From IMG/VR virus record IMGVR_UViG_3300045911_000331, positions 1-30,718 of that record: DNA of 30,718 nucleotides, one strand, 5' to 3'. Both the position numbers and the translations under genes were made by a program. The stretch comes from a virus. Of the stretch, positions 997-21,269 are shown piece after piece. Under the pieces are notes generated by a model that worked only from the letters and a program-made list of their open reading frames with translations, was not told the origin of the DNA and made no database searches. Numbering within the stretch: position 1 is the stretch's first letter; every line of letters begins with the position of its first letter.

Positions 997-1974
997 ATGG
1001 AAGCAACCAAAACCATCCAGCAGGAGCTTGACTTCACGAACATCGGGTACCGCAAATGGGCCGTCGAGCACTCGGCAGCCCTGCGAAGCCTCGCGGTCGT
1101 CGAGGGAGTCGGCAATCGAGCCAAGACGATTCGGCTGAACGTCTGCGAGGTGCAATGCTTGCTGTATCGGTTGGCTCGCTACGATGACTGCTACGAGTCG
1201 GTCGATGCGATGGCTGCCGCGTGCGGTCTGTCGAGTCGCAAGGTGGAACGCATCCTACGCGGACTGCAAGAAAACGGCCTCATGGAGATCGACAAGGTAT
1301 CACGTGGGCCAGGGTTCCCCTCGAATCGCTACATCGTGTTTTGGAGCGAATTGGTGACCGTCAAGCCCAAGACCATTGCGACGGTAAAGGCCACTCGCGC
1401 ATGTCCGCCACAACAGAGCCCAGCGGCTGCCGCATGTCCGCCACAACAGAGCCCAGCGGCTGCCGCATGTCCGCCACAACAGAGCCCAGCGGCTGCCGCA
1501 TGTCCGCCACCATGTCCGCCACCATGTCCGCCACCATGTCCGCCACCATGTCCGCCACTATGTCCGCCACTATGTCCGCCACCGGTGGCGGACAATAAAA
1601 AGAATAAAGAGAAAGAAACAACAACAACAACTTGGAAGTGTGTTGTTTCCTTTTTGAACCAAGTGGGAGTTAGCCAAGCATCGCGAGCTTGTGAGCGAGC
1701 TTCCCAACGAGGATTGAAAGCCGGGGATGTACTGTCCCATTTGCAGAAGCTTGCCAACGCTGGTTGTACCCACCCGGGCATCTTTTACAATCAGGCGATC
1801 TATCCGACCCAGGCCAAAGCGGATGTACCGAAGCCGAGGCCAAAGCGCACTAATCCAGAGGTGCTCTGGAAGCGGGCGTTTGATTGTTTGAGGAACCGCT
1901 TAGGTCGCATTCCGACCGAGGCCGAGGTTCAAGCCCTATTGCGTGGTACGCAGCTTCAGGCGTCACACGTCTGA
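997..1974 (+). CDS. Replication initiator, winged-helix (lambda O-like organisation)
   Basis: The protein has 325 residues. Residues 1-130 are helical with a winged helix-turn-helix: YESVDAMAAACGLSSRKVERIL then LQENGLMEI and a wing ending SNRYIVFW, as in phage and plasmid replication initiators. Residues about 135-198 are low-complexity CPPQQSPAAAA and CPPP repeats, encoded by the iteron array described separately. Then comes a Lys/Thr-rich linker and a C-terminal helical domain (about 215-325) of unknown contacts. In lambda O, the N-terminal domain binds iterons lying within the O gene and the C-terminal domain recruits the helicase loader; the same layout is seen here. No helicase or loader is in the window, so the host helicase is probably recruited, which is inference. 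The ATG at 997 begins the conserved domain. The stop falls inside the first 132-bp repeat. Confidence 0.75.
   Translation: MEATKTIQQELDFTNIGYRKWAVEHSAALRSLAVVEGVGNRAKTIRLNVCEVQCLLYRLARYDDCYESVDAMAAACGLSSRKVERILRGLQENGLMEIDKVSRGPGFPSNRYIVFWSELVTVKPKTIATVKATRACPPQQSPAAAACPPQQSPAAAACPPQQSPAAAACPPPCPPPCPPPCPPPCPPLCPPLCPPPVADNKKNKEKETTTTTWKCVVSFLNQVGVSQASRACERASQRGLKAGDVLSHLQKLANAGCTHPGIFYNQAIYPTQAKADVPKPRPKRTNPEVLWKRAFDCLRNRLGRIPTEAEVQALLRGTQLQASHV
1401..1583 (+). repeat. Ten iterons inside the replication gene
   Basis: The core ATGTCCGCCAC starts at 1401, 1434, 1467, 1500, 1512, 1524, 1536, 1548, 1560 and 1572. The first three copies are 33-bp units (33 = 3 helical turns). The last seven are 12-bp units with only the final base varying (ATGTCCGCCACC or ...ACT). 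All are in phase with the codons. The array is the central part of a likely replication origin. Confidence 0.9.
1573..1594. promoter_or_regulatory. 22-bp perfect palindrome closing the iteron array
   Basis: The half-site TGTCCGCCACC (1573-1583) is followed directly by its exact reverse complement (1584-1594), so the last iteron meets an inverted iteron head-on. A palindrome at the border between iterons and an AT-rich stretch is typical of origins, where it can be bound by initiator dimers. The sequence is certain; the role is inference. Confidence 0.85.
1595..1645. other. AT-rich stretch, candidate DNA-unwinding element
   Basis: Directly after the palindrome the sequence becomes A-rich on the plus strand (ATAAAAAGAATAAAGAGAAA, then ACAACAACAA), in strong contrast with the GC-rich iterons. 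In lambda ori an AT-rich segment follows the iterons and is where the duplex melts. It encodes a Lys/Thr linker in the initiator protein. Confidence 0.6.
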
Positions 1975-3217: not shown

Positions 3218-3589
3218 TCAGCTGCGTTGTTTGGTGCGAACCATCATATTGGAAAACTTGCTCTTCCAGTGATCGGGATTTGCAATCATATCACCTAGCA
3301 AAACAGCAGCCGGTCCGGGAACTTCGCTTTTACCTTGCTCCCATTTCTCCAAGGTTCTTTTAGACACTCCGATGAGCTTAGCAAAAACTGCCTGGCTCAC
3401 GTGAAAGTCGTGTCGTATATTTTTAACTTCCTCAGGTTTAACCTTTCTTGGTTCCAAGGAAAGTTTAACTCTTCGTATGGTTATCTTTGGGCTTAAATCC
3501 TCAATTCGATCAACAGAATCAAGTCGCTCTGCAGCAGCCTTAACCCTACCAATCAGTTTGTTTTCAAAATCCGTGAACTCTTTATTCAT
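3218..3589 (-). CDS. HigA-like antitoxin, XRE helix-turn-helix
   Basis: The protein has 123 residues. Residues about 60-105 form a clear XRE/lambda-repressor helix-turn-helix (HDFHVSQAVFAKLIGVSKRTLEKWEQGKS), with the recognition helix in SKRTLEKWEQG. The N-terminal half is helical and charged and probably wraps the toxin. Its start overlaps the toxin stop by 8 bp, so the two are translationally coupled. The order toxin then antitoxin is that of HigBA families. The likely role is neutralising the toxin and repressing the shared promoter at 4062-4082. The base composition is more AT-rich than the surrounding virion genes, suggesting separate acquisition. Confidence 0.8.
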   Translation of the reverse strand: MNKEFTDFENKLIGRVKAAAERLDSVDRIEDLSPKITIRRVKLSLEPRKVKPEEVKNIRHDFHVSQAVFAKLIGVSKRTLEKWEQGKSEVPGPAAVLLGDMIANPDHWKSKFSNMMVRTKQRS

Positions 3590-4025
3590 CAGGCCTTCTC
3601 CACGCTTTGTACTGTGCCAGCAGTTTTTCTCTTACCGAGGAGCAGTGCGTTGTTAACTGCTTCTTGGCATCCTCCGATAAATCGTTCGAATCTGTCTTCG
3701 AATAGGCCATTACGACGAGCACGATGAAGATTTCCGGAACGTATAGGTACAAAACCCTAGCTCCGCCTCGCTTTCCTCGACCTCGCGTTCGCCACCTGAT
3801 CTTTCGAAGCCCGCCCGTCCCCGGGATGACATCTCCCGACTCAGGGTTCGCAGTTAGTGCAAACTCGAACATTGGTAAATCTTTGTCTTCGTTCAGTCCA
3901 AGTTCCGTCCAATCGTCTATAAACCCGTCTTCGTAGATAAAATCAAGCATATCTTGAGGTTGAACCAAATGCTCAGGATAGATGATTTTGGCTTCGCTAA
4001 CGGGAATCGAGCGTCTTTTGCTCAT
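3582..4025 (-). CDS. HigB/RelE-superfamily toxin
   Basis: This 147-residue protein has the features of RelE/HigB-2-type ribosome-dependent mRNA interferases: MFEFALTANPESGDVIPGTGG, then LRKIRWRTRGRGKRGGARVLYLY, then a hydrophobic strand IFIVLVVMAYSKTD and a final helix rich in Lys/Arg. The basic GKRGGARV segment is the usual RNA-binding surface. Its N-terminal 40 residues are longer than in the smallest family members. AGGAG lies just upstream of the ATG. It is first in a two-gene leftward operon with the antitoxin and behaves as a moron: separate promoter, separate terminator, placed beyond the end of the virion operon. Confidence 0.8.
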   Translation of the reverse strand: MSKRRSIPVSEAKIIYPEHLVQPQDMLDFIYEDGFIDDWTELGLNEDKDLPMFEFALTANPESGDVIPGTGGLRKIRWRTRGRGKRGGARVLYLYVPEIFIVLVVMAYSKTDSNDLSEDAKKQLTTHCSSVREKLLAQYKAWRRPDE

Positions 4026-5234: not shown

Positions 5235-7553
5235 CTACGTGCGAGGGATAACTTGGAAGGTCGCAGGTGCATCGTCCCAAATCGCAATGCCGTTGCCCGT
5301 CATCCCGACAGGCCATTGCTGAGGCGGCCCGATCGGATGCTCGTCGAACATCGTCGACTCCACGACAGCCTGGTTAAACGGGAATTCTTGCGTGACATTG
5401 GTACTGGTCCACGTATTCCCGAACGGTGATGTGGAGTACTCGAAGGCCCACGGATCGGCAGCCTCATGGATAAGCTGCTGATTCTGCATCCGCCAATAGC
5501 GAGTGTCGATACGCCAGCGTAGCGTGCCACGCCAGCTCCACCCCGATGAGCAAAAGAACAATCGCAGCGTCCCCTCGATAGCGACTTGATAGGCGATGTT
5601 GAAAACGGCTCCACTGCCGGGATCGATATGCCCCTGATGCAAAACACCTGCCAGGTAGGTCGCCGGGTGATCGATCCCCGCATACGGGCGAATCATTGGT
5701 TCATGGTTGACCCCGGCACTGATCTGGTAACTGCATCCGCCGACCAAGCCGCAATCCATAACCCATTGCCAGCCGAGATCCGGAGCCAATCGGCTGTTGG
5801 CGATCCGCGATCGCAAACGCCTCGTCAAATTGCTAATCGGGAACGAGGTAAAGGTGGGAAACGAATCGGGCTCGGTAGCATCGCAGTCTAGGGTCACCGA
5901 CCAGGAGCCACGTTTGAGCACAATGGATTGGATCTCTAGTGGCACCATGCCCGAAGCGCTCGGACGTAGAATGGCGGGATAGTTCAGCGTCTCGGGCCAG
6001 GTCACAGGCTGTTCGAATTCCACGCGGGTTTGATGGACCAGGTTGACTTCCTCGGTCGGCAATGCAGGAATCGCTACGAGCGGATTCGGGATGAACTTAC
6101 CAAACGTGCGAGATCGGACGCGATTGTTGAACGTACTCGGTTCGTTGCAATCGATGCTGATTAGGGAGACAAGCAACCATCCGCCGTTCTGGGTCACGGT
6201 GATATCAGGATAGCCGTTCCAAAAATCTCCCCAGCAGCAGTTCCCGACTCCAATCAAGTGCGACGGCAGGGTGCAACCCTCCGCCTCGCGAGTTTCCTCC
6301 TTGGTAAAGTACTCGTAGACCGAGAATCGCATCGTTGACTGAAACGCCTCCAGGCGATAGATGCGGCCCCAGATTTTGTACTCGTGGAACGTGCTGATGT
6401 TTCTTTCGGTACAGTTATCGGGTTCGGTCGTCGTCCAGGTCTCGGTGAAGATCGGATAACAGAGGGGCTTTTCGTTCATCGTCACGGTTACGACCGCAGC
6501 TTCCAATTCCGGATGCGTGTCGCTGAGAGCACGGATTTGCGCTTGCACTCCGGCGGCGATATCCTCCTCTGTGCGGCATGGCCCCCCGGGGGCAAAGTTC
6601 AATTGGAACTCCGTGCAGCGATAACGCCAGGTCATGTCAGCCACGATATGCCGTTCATCGGACCAGCGAAAGGTTTGCACCTCGTTGTACTGTCCCGAGA
6701 TTTCTACCTCGAGAAAAAGCCGGGCTGATATCGGATCGCATTGGATGAGTTCGAAGATGGCGTACGGTTCGAGAGGCTCTTCTGGATCTTCTGGCTCTTC
6801 TGGCTCCTCTGGCTCTTCCGGTTCCTCTAGTTCTTCTGGCTCTTCTGGCTCGACGGGATCCTCCGGATCGCCTGGACTAGGGACGGGCAACGAGATCGTG
6901 AATTCGAAATCCCTTACCGGTTGTGCATGACGCAATACACATTCTGGACCTCCGTAGCCATCGACCAGTACATAGCGAGAGGCAACATTCGTGCAGCCCT
7001 CATGCCATTCTTGCCACGGAGCATCCGAGACCGGCTTGCAATCGTCAATGGTTTTATCGATCCATTCCGTAACCACGGGACTACCGTAGCCGGTTACGTA
7101 CCCGTCTGAGTCCCGAAAGATCGTTCGTACGGATCGCGTCCGTTTTAATGAGATCGATGCAATCTTACGCGGGCATGGCTGCGGAATGCATCGCTGGGCA
7201 CCGGAGGTGATCAGCCAATGCCCTGAAAGTTCTTCCTTTTCCACGATGACTTCGTTGTCGGGTCCGATCCATTCGATTTCCGGATTGGCGATGCGAATCG
7301 ATTGGTAGGTTTGTGCATTGGCATCGTCTGCTGGAGGTACAGGAACAGCCAACCCCATGCCCAATCCCTCTTGGTTTCGTTCTGCCACGCGGGTAATCGT
7401 GCGAGCCCGCATCGCTCGAACATGAGACCTCGGCACGTCGGTCGTCTGACGTTTGATCTCCCCCAATAAATTCATCAATTGTGAGGCGTCGTTGCCCTCG
7501 AAATGTACGATTTCCATGCGGTTATACGGTTTCTTGACGGCTAAACCGTCCAC
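5235..7553 (-). CDS. Large virion-associated tail protein with Pro/Glu linker
   Basis: The protein has 772 residues. The start is a GTG at 7553, overlapping the previous stop; an in-frame ATG at 7517 is the alternative. Residues about 225-265 form an acidic linker of repeated PEEPEE-type units separating an N-terminal domain from a long, beta-rich C-terminal half with many Trp, Thr and Asn. There is no membrane segment or signal peptide. In HK97-like phages the genes after the tape measure encode baseplate or tip and side-fibre proteins, and size and position fit such a virion protein. It could instead be a receptor-binding or decoration protein; I recognise no catalytic motif. Confidence 0.6.
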   Translation of the reverse strand: MDGLAVKKPYNRMEIVHFEGNDASQLMNLLGEIKRQTTDVPRSHVRAMRARTITRVAERNQEGLGMGLAVPVPPADDANAQTYQSIRIANPEIEWIGPDNEVIVEKEELSGHWLITSGAQRCIPQPCPRKIASISLKRTRSVRTIFRDSDGYVTGYGSPVVTEWIDKTIDDCKPVSDAPWQEWHEGCTNVASRYVLVDGYGGPECVLRHAQPVRDFEFTISLPVPSPGDPEDPVEPEEPEELEEPEEPEEPEEPEDPEEPLEPYAIFELIQCDPISARLFLEVEISGQYNEVQTFRWSDERHIVADMTWRYRCTEFQLNFAPGGPCRTEEDIAAGVQAQIRALSDTHPELEAAVVTVTMNEKPLCYPIFTETWTTTEPDNCTERNISTFHEYKIWGRIYRLEAFQSTMRFSVYEYFTKEETREAEGCTLPSHLIGVGNCCWGDFWNGYPDITVTQNGGWLLVSLISIDCNEPSTFNNRVRSRTFGKFIPNPLVAIPALPTEEVNLVHQTRVEFEQPVTWPETLNYPAILRPSASGMVPLEIQSIVLKRGSWSVTLDCDATEPDSFPTFTSFPISNLTRRLRSRIANSRLAPDLGWQWVMDCGLVGGCSYQISAGVNHEPMIRPYAGIDHPATYLAGVLHQGHIDPGSGAVFNIAYQVAIEGTLRLFFCSSGWSWRGTLRWRIDTRYWRMQNQQLIHEAADPWAFEYSTSPFGNTWTSTNVTQEFPFNQAVVESTMFDEHPIGPPQQWPVGMTGNGIAIWDDAPATFQVIPRT
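6768..6875. repeat. Nine-bp microrepeats coding an acidic linker
   Basis: On the plus strand TCTGGCTCT-like 9-bp units recur about ten times with point differences, encoding Pro-Glu-Glu triplets on the minus strand. They form a flexible charged spacer in the 772-residue virion protein. Confidence 0.75.
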
Positions 7554-11892: not shown

Positions 11893-11923
11893 AGCTTGTG
11901 GGGTTTGTTGGATGTTGTGGTAA

Positions 11924-12167
11924 CCGGACGCTAGCGCGTTCCGGCTGATTCGGCAACCGGACGCTAACGCGTTCCGGCTAATGAGCCGCAGTGCGCTAGC
12001 ACGCGGTTGGTATTGGAACCGGACGCTAGCGCGTTCCGGCTAATTCGGCAACCGGACGCTAGCGCGTTCCGGCTGATACGGTAACCGGACGCTAACGCGT
12101 TCCGGCTAATGAGCCGCAGTGCGCTAGCACGCGGTTGGTATTGGAACCGGACGCTAACGCGTTCCGG
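11924..12167. repeat. Type-A/type-B hairpin array between tail tube and chaperone genes
   Basis: Type A starts at 11924, 11957, 12019, 12052, 12085 and 12147; type B at 11986 and 12114. Steps are A-A 33, A-B 29 and B-A 33 bp without exception. Some A copies have GCTAGC in place of GCTAAC in the centre. The array fills nearly the whole gap between the two genes. Confidence 0.92.
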
Positions 12168-12179
12168 CTGATTCGGGCA

Positions 12180-17924: not shown

Positions 17925-18278
17925 CTACTTGAGCTGAACGGCCAGCACCTTGGTGGGTTCGGTTTTGTCCTCGATCTTTTTGGCTGCCTCAGCTCCGCAG
18001 GCTTCGATGTACGCATCTTTCCATCGAGGGTATTTGGGACCATCCTTGAGCGTGACGAGGAACTTACCTTTGATAAGGCTGTTCTTCATCTTGGTGGTCA
18101 TCCAGTCGATGATATCTTTCCTGATCGCTTTGCAGATGTTCTCGGCGGAGGTGAGCTCCGACTGAGCGATTTTTCGCAATCGTTCCGCTTCGTGGTATCG
18201 TTGCAGAACATCTTCGTCAAGTTTGAATCCGGGAGTCATGGGCGTAGTGATTGGTTTGGGTTGGGTTTCGTGCTTCAA
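17925..18278 (-). CDS. Helical protein of the connector cluster, unknown
   Basis: The ORF is open to a TTG at 18278 (117 residues); an ATG at 18239 (104 residues) is the alternative, and neither has a visible ribosome site. The gene begins almost at the edge of a hairpin-repeat array. The protein is mainly helical (VLQRYHEAERLRKIAQSEL, ENICKAIRKDIIDWMTTKM) with a central hairpin KGKFLVTLKDGPKYPRW and a Lys-rich end (GAEAAKKIEDKTEPTKVLAV). The tail end resembles small phage proteins sometimes found near recombination genes, but I cannot assign a family. Confidence 0.5.
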   Translation of the reverse strand: MKHETQPKPITTPMTPGFKLDEDVLQRYHEAERLRKIAQSELTSAENICKAIRKDIIDWMTTKMKNSLIKGKFLVTLKDGPKYPRWKDAYIEACGAEAAKKIEDKTEPTKVLAVQLK

Positions 18279-18282
18279 TTAG

Positions 18283-18402
18283 CCGGAACGCGTTAGCGTC
18301 CGGTTCCCGTATTAGCCGGAACGCGCTAGCGTCCGGTTACCGTATTAGCCGGAACGCGTTAGCGTCCGGTTACAATATTAACCGCGTGCTAGCGCACTGC
18401 GG
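18283..18402. repeat. Inverted type-A/type-B hairpin array at capsid/connector border
   Basis: Here the repeats are on the opposite strand relative to all other arrays: type A at 18283-18303, 18316-18336 and 18349-18369, and type B at 18382-18402, all 33 bp apart. Read in their own direction this is B-A-A-A, which obeys the same spacing rule as elsewhere. Confidence 0.92.
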
Positions 18403-20687: not shown

Positions 20688-21269
20688 ATGCAACGGGTTT
20701 TATTGATAGGGCTATTGCTGCTGGCGACTGGTTGCACGGACTCGCAATGGCGGTTCATCCCTGTACCTCCCGAAACACCCATCGCGAATGTCCCGCCGAA
20801 ACTGAGGCAGACGAACTGGGTCGATCGAAAGGGCTCGGGCTCGTGCGTGATCGCCTCGAGCTGCTCACTGCTACGATGGCACAATCAAGATGCGATTGCC
20901 GATTACTTTCGCAAAAACTATGCCGGAGGTCAAACGGCCAAATCCATCACGGATATTTGGACACGGCACAAGATCCCGTTCGAACAGGAAACCAACGGTC
21001 GGCCTGAGTTCCTGGATTGGTGCAGCACAACCAGACGCCCAGCGATTATCTGGTTCTTTGATTCGCACTGCGTCACCTTTTGTGGGTACGGAGTGCACAA
21101 CAATCGCCAGGTGGCTTGGCTGCTCGACAACAATCGCGTGGAACGATTCATCCCGGTCGAACGCAATGCGTTTCTACGGGCCTGGCGTGGTTATGGCGGG
21201 TTCGCCATGGCAACCACACTGGATCCATGTCCGCCACTTCCTAGACAGGGTTATGAGGTGATCCGATGA
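20688..21269 (+). CDS. Lipoprotein papain-like (C39-like) peptidase
   Basis: I chose the ATG at 20688 (193 residues) because it begins a lipoprotein signal: QRVLLIGLLLLATGC, with the lipobox ending at Cys16. The mature part has the order of papain-like/C39 enzymes: KGSGSCVIASSCSLLRWH with probable nucleophile Cys53, DSHCVTFCGYG with His127, and WLLDNNR with Asp147 or Asn148. Such enzymes cut peptide bonds, including peptidoglycan cross-links. It heads the rightward late arm and overlaps the next gene as ATGA. No other endolysin is in the window, so it may be a lysis endopeptidase, but a lipid anchor would be unusual; an envelope moron is the alternative. Confidence 0.7.
   Translation: MQRVLLIGLLLLATGCTDSQWRFIPVPPETPIANVPPKLRQTNWVDRKGSGSCVIASSCSLLRWHNQDAIADYFRKNYAGGQTAKSITDIWTRHKIPFEQETNGRPEFLDWCSTTRRPAIIWFFDSHCVTFCGYGVHNNRQVAWLLDNNRVERFIPVERNAFLRAWRGYGGFAMATTLDPCPPLPRQGYEVIR

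Follow-up and report, generated by a model that had tools for sequence, protein, structure and literature searches.

The window analyzed here, 30,718 bases in length, is the whole IMG/VR record IMGVR_UViG_3300045911_000331, which is of the linear class and probably incomplete. Because terminase, portal, major head, tape-measure, and integrase genes were found in it, we consider the window to be a temperate tailed phage or prophage. One of its genes encodes a 325-aa protein that belongs with the O-like and replication initiation families: it matched PHROG_270 "replication initiation" (E 1.2e-8) and PHROG_391 "replication initiation O-like" (E 2.4e-6), as well as several further initiator families. 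DnaD-like PHROGs were absent among these matches, unlike among those of two initiator genes described below (L048 and L078). Pfam HTH_36 matched at aa 54-95 with an E-value of 1e-4, which is below the cut-off. A single relative of this initiator was found among 2.9 million viral contigs (L007:5992-6837, 48% amino acid identity), and it falls into the same families. Among 50,697 named phages, a tblastn search with the initiator found no match, and none of the 30 stretches obtained by searching genome contigs with protein patterns was a relative.

The AlphaFold2 model of the initiator was built on a two-sequence alignment and reached a mean pLDDT of 60, and was therefore used for the outline only. 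In this outline (Table 1), the predicted disorder coincides exactly with the repeat-coding part of the gene. When the model was compared with the PDB by Foldseek, only generic MarR-like winged helices appeared, none with E <0.03; the weak matches in BFVD included a replication protein O and a RepA-like initiator. None of these matches was given weight, because the model is of low confidence overall. The sub-threshold HTH_36 match, the PHROG initiator families, and the modest model together agree with the first-pass annotation, in which the gene had been described as a winged-helix initiator gene.

Several features surround this gene. The perfect inverted repeat GTGTTCGGGTCT-TCATG-AGACCCGAACAC is located at 918-946, some 50 bp 5' of the start of the initiator gene, and has identical arms and a different loop in L007; it may serve this gene as an operator or form an RNA hairpin. 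Tandem repeats of 132 bp and 62 bp, with CGGACGCTAACGCGTTCCGGCT as their basis, occupy several intergenic places (1971-2873, 11922-12176, and 18278-18384), including the one directly after the initiator gene. We presume that these repeats are of the kind seen in Rhodopirellula-type planctomycetes, and our guess of a Planctomycetota host rests on this presumed likeness. On the minus strand, at 3218-4025, a gene for an Xre-type HTH protein overlaps a RelE-like toxin gene; the two are a probable toxin-antitoxin pair.

Table 1. Coordinates of the initiator gene and of the features within it
Feature	Position	Strand	Evidence
Initiator gene, O-like, 325 aa	997-1974	+	PHROG_270 and PHROG_391 matches; homologue L007
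N-terminal winged helix (aa 33-116), putative iteron-binding domain	1093-1344	+	HTH_36; AlphaFold2 helices and wing strands, pLDDT mostly 70-85
Predicted disordered linker (aa 117-210), holds iterons and most of A-rich tract	1345-1626	+	AlphaFold2 pLDDT <50 over most of its length
C-terminal helical domain (aa 213-317), putative helicase or loader contact	1633-1947	+	AlphaFold2 helices, pLDDT about 76-83
Iteron 1, 33-bp step to iteron 2	1401-1411	+	Exact word search
Iteron 2, 33-bp step to iteron 3	1434-1444	+	Exact word search
Iteron 3, 33-bp step to iteron 4	1467-1477	+	Exact word search
Iterons 4-10, 12-bp spacing (starts 1500, 1512, 1524, 1536, 1548, 1560, 1572)	1500-1582	+	Core shared with L007
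Iteron 11, inverted copy	1586-1594	-	Also in L007, same reading frame (GTG GCG GAC AAT)
Perfect 22-bp palindrome TGTCCGCCACCGGTGGCGGACA, iterons 10 and 11 head-on	1573-1594		0 expected by chance
A-rich purine-strand tract, putative DNA unwinding element	1594-1639		Nearest-neighbor stability, GC3
Inverted repeat AAAGAAACAACA / TGTTGTTTCCTT, far edge of A-rich tract	1612-1652		Weak fold, z -0.9

Ten direct copies of ATGTCCGCCAC lie at 1401-1582, separated by three 33-bp steps and then six 12-bp steps. The array is located mid-gene, between the coding parts of the winged helix and the C-terminal domain, so that the direct iterons lie downstream of the part encoding the DNA-binding domain. Exact TGTCCGCCA was found on the plus strand at 1402, 1435, 1468, 1501, 1513, 1525, 1537, 1549, 1561, and 1573, with one further exact copy outside the array in the 30.7-kb window, at 21228. 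Tandem Repeats Finder reported a period of 33 at 1398-1510 (100% matches) and a period of 12 at 1499-1583 (97%). One 9-mer was present in 11 copies within 200 bp, whereas none of 20 dinucleotide shuffles reached more than 2 copies of any 9-mer in such a span; the second-ranking real cluster in the window had 6 copies. A blastn search with the array region against phages and plasmids gave matches to the A-rich tract only, by composition. The first-pass annotation had reported ten copies (three at 33-bp and seven at 12-bp spacing) and a perfect palindrome formed by a head-on iteron pair. The palindrome, the ten direct copies, and the three 33-bp steps were all recovered, while the seven at 12 bp are sites, with six intervals between them.

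The same annotation had proposed that the sites are stacked along one face of the helix. At 10.5 bp per turn, however, 12 bp correspond to 1.14 turns and to a rotation of ~51 degrees per step, and the 33-bp spacing (12 + 21 bp) gives the same 51 degrees. The iterons therefore form a ramp around the helix and do not share one face. The change of period from 33 to 12 bp, which had been singled out as unusual, probably reflects a recent duplication of the 33-bp block and not a working change of period, because its copies show 100% identity and L007 has none of them.

The immediate switch to A-rich DNA after the palindrome was borne out by the stability calculation: the tract ranks second in instability among the 45-bp places of the window (z 3.5) and first among those of the gene. 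An AT-rich, unwinding-prone tract thus lies directly beside the iterons, as was also found for lambda O, the positive control. In L007, the 45-bp segment of lowest stability in the gene (6460-6505) likewise starts where the array ends. Third codon positions with G or C numbered 5 of 19 in the tract of the window, where 12.7 were expected from the codon usage of the phage (p 2e-4), and 4 of 20 in that of L007, where about 13 were expected (p 4e-5). As this third-position GC content is far below the codon-usage expectation, the A-rich tract is not merely a by-product of the encoded amino acids. Cumulative GC skew, a check that the first-pass annotation had suggested, showed no turn at the site, which counts against an origin there, and was left out of the origin evidence. 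The inverted repeat beyond the tract was considered as a structural feature common to both genes; it is strong in L007 (fold z -3.3) and not significant in the window, and was for that reason retained only as a possible part.

L007 carries, at the same place in its gene, five 12-bp units of the 9-bp core GTCCGCCAC and the inverted copy, with the palindrome half-sites 1 bp closer together than in the window (gap 3 vs 4). One copy of the word lies far from the array in the L007 record, at 44933. When the two arrays were aligned as DNA, 44 of the 45 core bases were kept, compared to 0 of the 12 bases in the separating spacers, a contrast that overstates the significance because array units do not evolve independently and that we therefore treat as one qualitative fact. 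The residues encoded by the array are CPPP in the window and PSAT in L007, with the word beginning at a different codon position; coding identity in the flanks is 69% for the winged-helix part and 60% for the C-terminal part. The first-pass annotation had named, as an observation that would speak against an origin, homologues that keep the CPPP repeats with unrelated codons. The opposite was found, since L007 keeps the word and loses CPPP. The comparison shows that the iteron word is kept at the DNA level whatever residues it encodes. As L007 is the one true homologue found, this conservation is a matter of two sequences and the parallels described next.

Two DNA-pattern scans of viral contigs, both blind to gene identity, brought in seven further initiator genes. 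In these genes, the word directly follows the wHTH part; five are O-like (L033, L037, L038, L041, and L064) and two DnaD-like (L048 and L078). The word is read in each of the three frames and in either direction, at times in the same gene. The least stable 45 bp either overlap the array or begin no more than about 25 bp from its end in six of these genes; L041, the remaining one, is truncated by the locus boundary. Of the 17 loci with the test pattern, 5 lay in initiator genes, compared to 0 of the 14 loci with a composition-matched control pattern (Fisher one-sided p 0.036), and because the loci had been picked by DNA pattern, the cross-family claim rests on this control and on modest numbers. 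The five loci carry at least 5 copies each, whereas the control loci never have more than 2. Four of the O-like genes (L033, L037, L038, and L064) form one family, so the families are not fully independent, and the winged helix of the window aligns weakly with this family (E 1.9e-4, probability 48%). Most O-like members have in common a recognition helix rich in arginine, R-[KST]-x-E-R-[AI], which may read the shared word.

The word also occurs outside genes of this kind. Seven copies of GTCCGCCA/TGGCGGAC lie at 2536-2678 of L056, just 3' of a 676-aa RepA-helicase-like ORF, and at four loci (L008, L009, L015, and L016) the word is present in unrelated genes. Searching genome contigs by DNA pattern gave seven loci, none of them in a recognizable initiator gene, and a phrog_391 survey in another phylum gave no new TGGCGGACA arrays. 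Two O-like genes of bacterial genomes brought up by this survey contain in-gene iterons of other sequence, namely GGCAAAGACTG in seven copies (L115 1770-1907) and GTCTGGCGACC in five copies at about 22 bp (L120 1789-1903). Arrays of the GTCCGC type were also seen outside recognizable initiator genes, at L011 5540-5790, where the array adjoins an HTH-containing ORF, and at L012 5850-5940; these two arrays are possible further origins. A text search for TGGCGGACA in open papers, which is a weak test of novelty, returned no phage-origin paper among the 15 best-ranked of 659 matches. We put forward only tentatively, leaning slightly against it, that TGGCGGACA (GTCCGCCA) is an iteron word common to divergent phage wHTH initiators, i.e., O-like, DnaD-like, and perhaps the RepA-helicase type of L056. 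Insertion of TGGCGGACA in whichever frame the linker allows could then have kept the iteron fixed across lineages whose initiators can barely be aligned. Its recurrence across initiator families is the unusual part of the finding.

Judged by these sequence features, the array and the A-rich tract very probably constitute an iteron origin within the initiator gene. The repeats could instead be a coding minisatellite, in which slippage expanded a low-complexity Cys/Pro-rich linker and the DNA itself has no function. Slippage does not make inversions, however, and the inverted copy is present in both the window and L007. The phage is admittedly rich in tandem repeats (22 Tandem Repeats Finder rows, 9-bp and 12-bp coding ones included), the periods 12 and 33 are both multiples of 3, and the 33-bp units are identical, so that a coding minisatellite may account for part of the array. 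Nevertheless, it is the DNA word and not the residues that L007 retains, the synonymous codons of the A-rich tract are biased in both genes, and other initiator families contain the word in other frames. Taken as the whole explanation, we regard slippage as very unlikely.

The chance is similarly slight that the repeats are an operator or handcuffing site, bound by the initiator or a repressor for control of transcription or copy number, with replication starting elsewhere. Plasmid iteron arrays can have control roles, and a separate conserved inverted repeat is located just 5' of the gene. The middle of a gene is nevertheless an odd position for an operator, the unwinding-prone tract directly beside the array is under synonymous constraint, and the layout is that of lambda ori, a proven origin. 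Binding of the repeats by another protein (host factor or nuclease) that marks a recombination or packaging site is extremely improbable, as arrays of the word recur in initiator genes or, in L056, next to a RepA-helicase-like gene and not near terminase or integrase genes, stray copies such as those at 21228 and 44933 notwithstanding.

We consider it highly likely that this is the origin of a temperate phage, located in its initiator gene, at which the winged helix would bind the iterons, the A-rich tract would open, and the C-terminal domain would recruit the helicase. The N-terminal winged helix would bind the GTCCGCCAC iterons as direct half-sites that end in one head-on dyad, and the assembled initiator complex would strain and open the A-rich tract. 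For the C-terminal domain, we infer only that it contacts the helicase or a loader; it may bring the host replicative helicase directly or via a loader unseen in the contig. We assume a host helicase here, since neither the window nor the L007 contig yielded a helicase or a DnaC-type loader. At the same time, the iteron DNA encodes the predicted disordered linker, whose amino acid sequence would hardly matter, so that the word could be retained in whichever frame it falls.

This interpretation narrows the probable origin of an otherwise uncharacterized group of environmental phages to within about 250 bp. It also offers a simple test for in-gene origins, i.e., a DNA word that is kept while the frame changes, beside the least stable tract of the gene. 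If the word shared by distant initiators is confirmed, the evolution of initiator-iteron recognition would become testable by domain and site swaps on plasmids.

Lambda O/ori provides the closest parallel in layout. In lambda, as in the window, the origin lies in the middle of the initiator gene, with iterons followed by an AT-rich tract. The iterons of lambda O occupy gene positions 349-433, and the least stable 45 bp start at 444, 11 bp after iteron 4; by the same measurement, the array of the window gene spans 407-598, and the least stable 45 bp start at 598, i.e., the geometry is the same. The order of winged-helix part, iterons, A-rich tract, and C-terminal part, in a gene that matches initiator families, thus supports the lambda-like origin proposed in the first-pass annotation. 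The iterons themselves differ: lambda has four of 18 bp, and those of the window are direct half-sites of 9-11 bp, spaced by 12 and 33 bp and closed by a single dyad at the end. The earlier statement that the two are unrelated in sequence holds for a direct comparison: when the wHTH pair was aligned to lambda O by hhalign, the result was E 0.074 at a probability of 0.8% over 13 unrelated columns, although the O-like PHROG profiles match weakly. No helicase-loader (P) gene lies directly downstream, the next ORF of annotated size after 1974 being one of 69 aa at 2575; what follows the initiator gene directly are presumably host-type repeats and not a P-like loader gene. Models for DnaB_C and IstB/DnaC had no match in the window or the L007 contig, both of which may be fragments. 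Stx phages have 6 iterons instead of 4, which adds 13 aa in frame (PMC7466680). Lambdoid and Stx phages thus tolerate extra iterons as in-frame additions, as does the window.

Winged-helix initiators of plasmids and satellites are comparable at the N-terminus. In the RepA_N initiators of pSK41, pTZ2162, and PLE RepA, a winged-helix N-terminal domain binds repeated iterons (PMC7145576, which cites the RepA_N/DnaD structures 4PTA, 4PT7, and 2v79). The window protein likewise has an N-terminal winged helix, and 4pt7 was among the weak Foldseek matches of its model; the scans made gave no match to the RepA_N family. RepA_N iterons have been described as sub-repeats in inverted orientation that converge on a poly-A tract, whereas those of the window are single half-sites with one GC-rich dyad.

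The DnaD-like phages (Staphylococcus phage SAP33, Cellulophaga phi18:3, and the loci L048 and L078) resemble the window in that short iterons, each about one helical turn long, immediately follow the part coding for the wHTH. Their 11-bp spacing cycles through all reading frames, whereas the 12- and 33-bp spacings of the window keep one frame, and the PHROG matches of the window protein are O-like and not DnaD-like. L048 and L078 use the same word as the window, TGGCGGACAA; the named DnaD-like phages use other iteron words. As in-gene iterons occur both in the DnaD-like phages (11 bp) and in the two O-like prophage genes from another phylum (21-25 bp), in-gene iteron origins are already known, and the window very probably contains a member with a word of its own.
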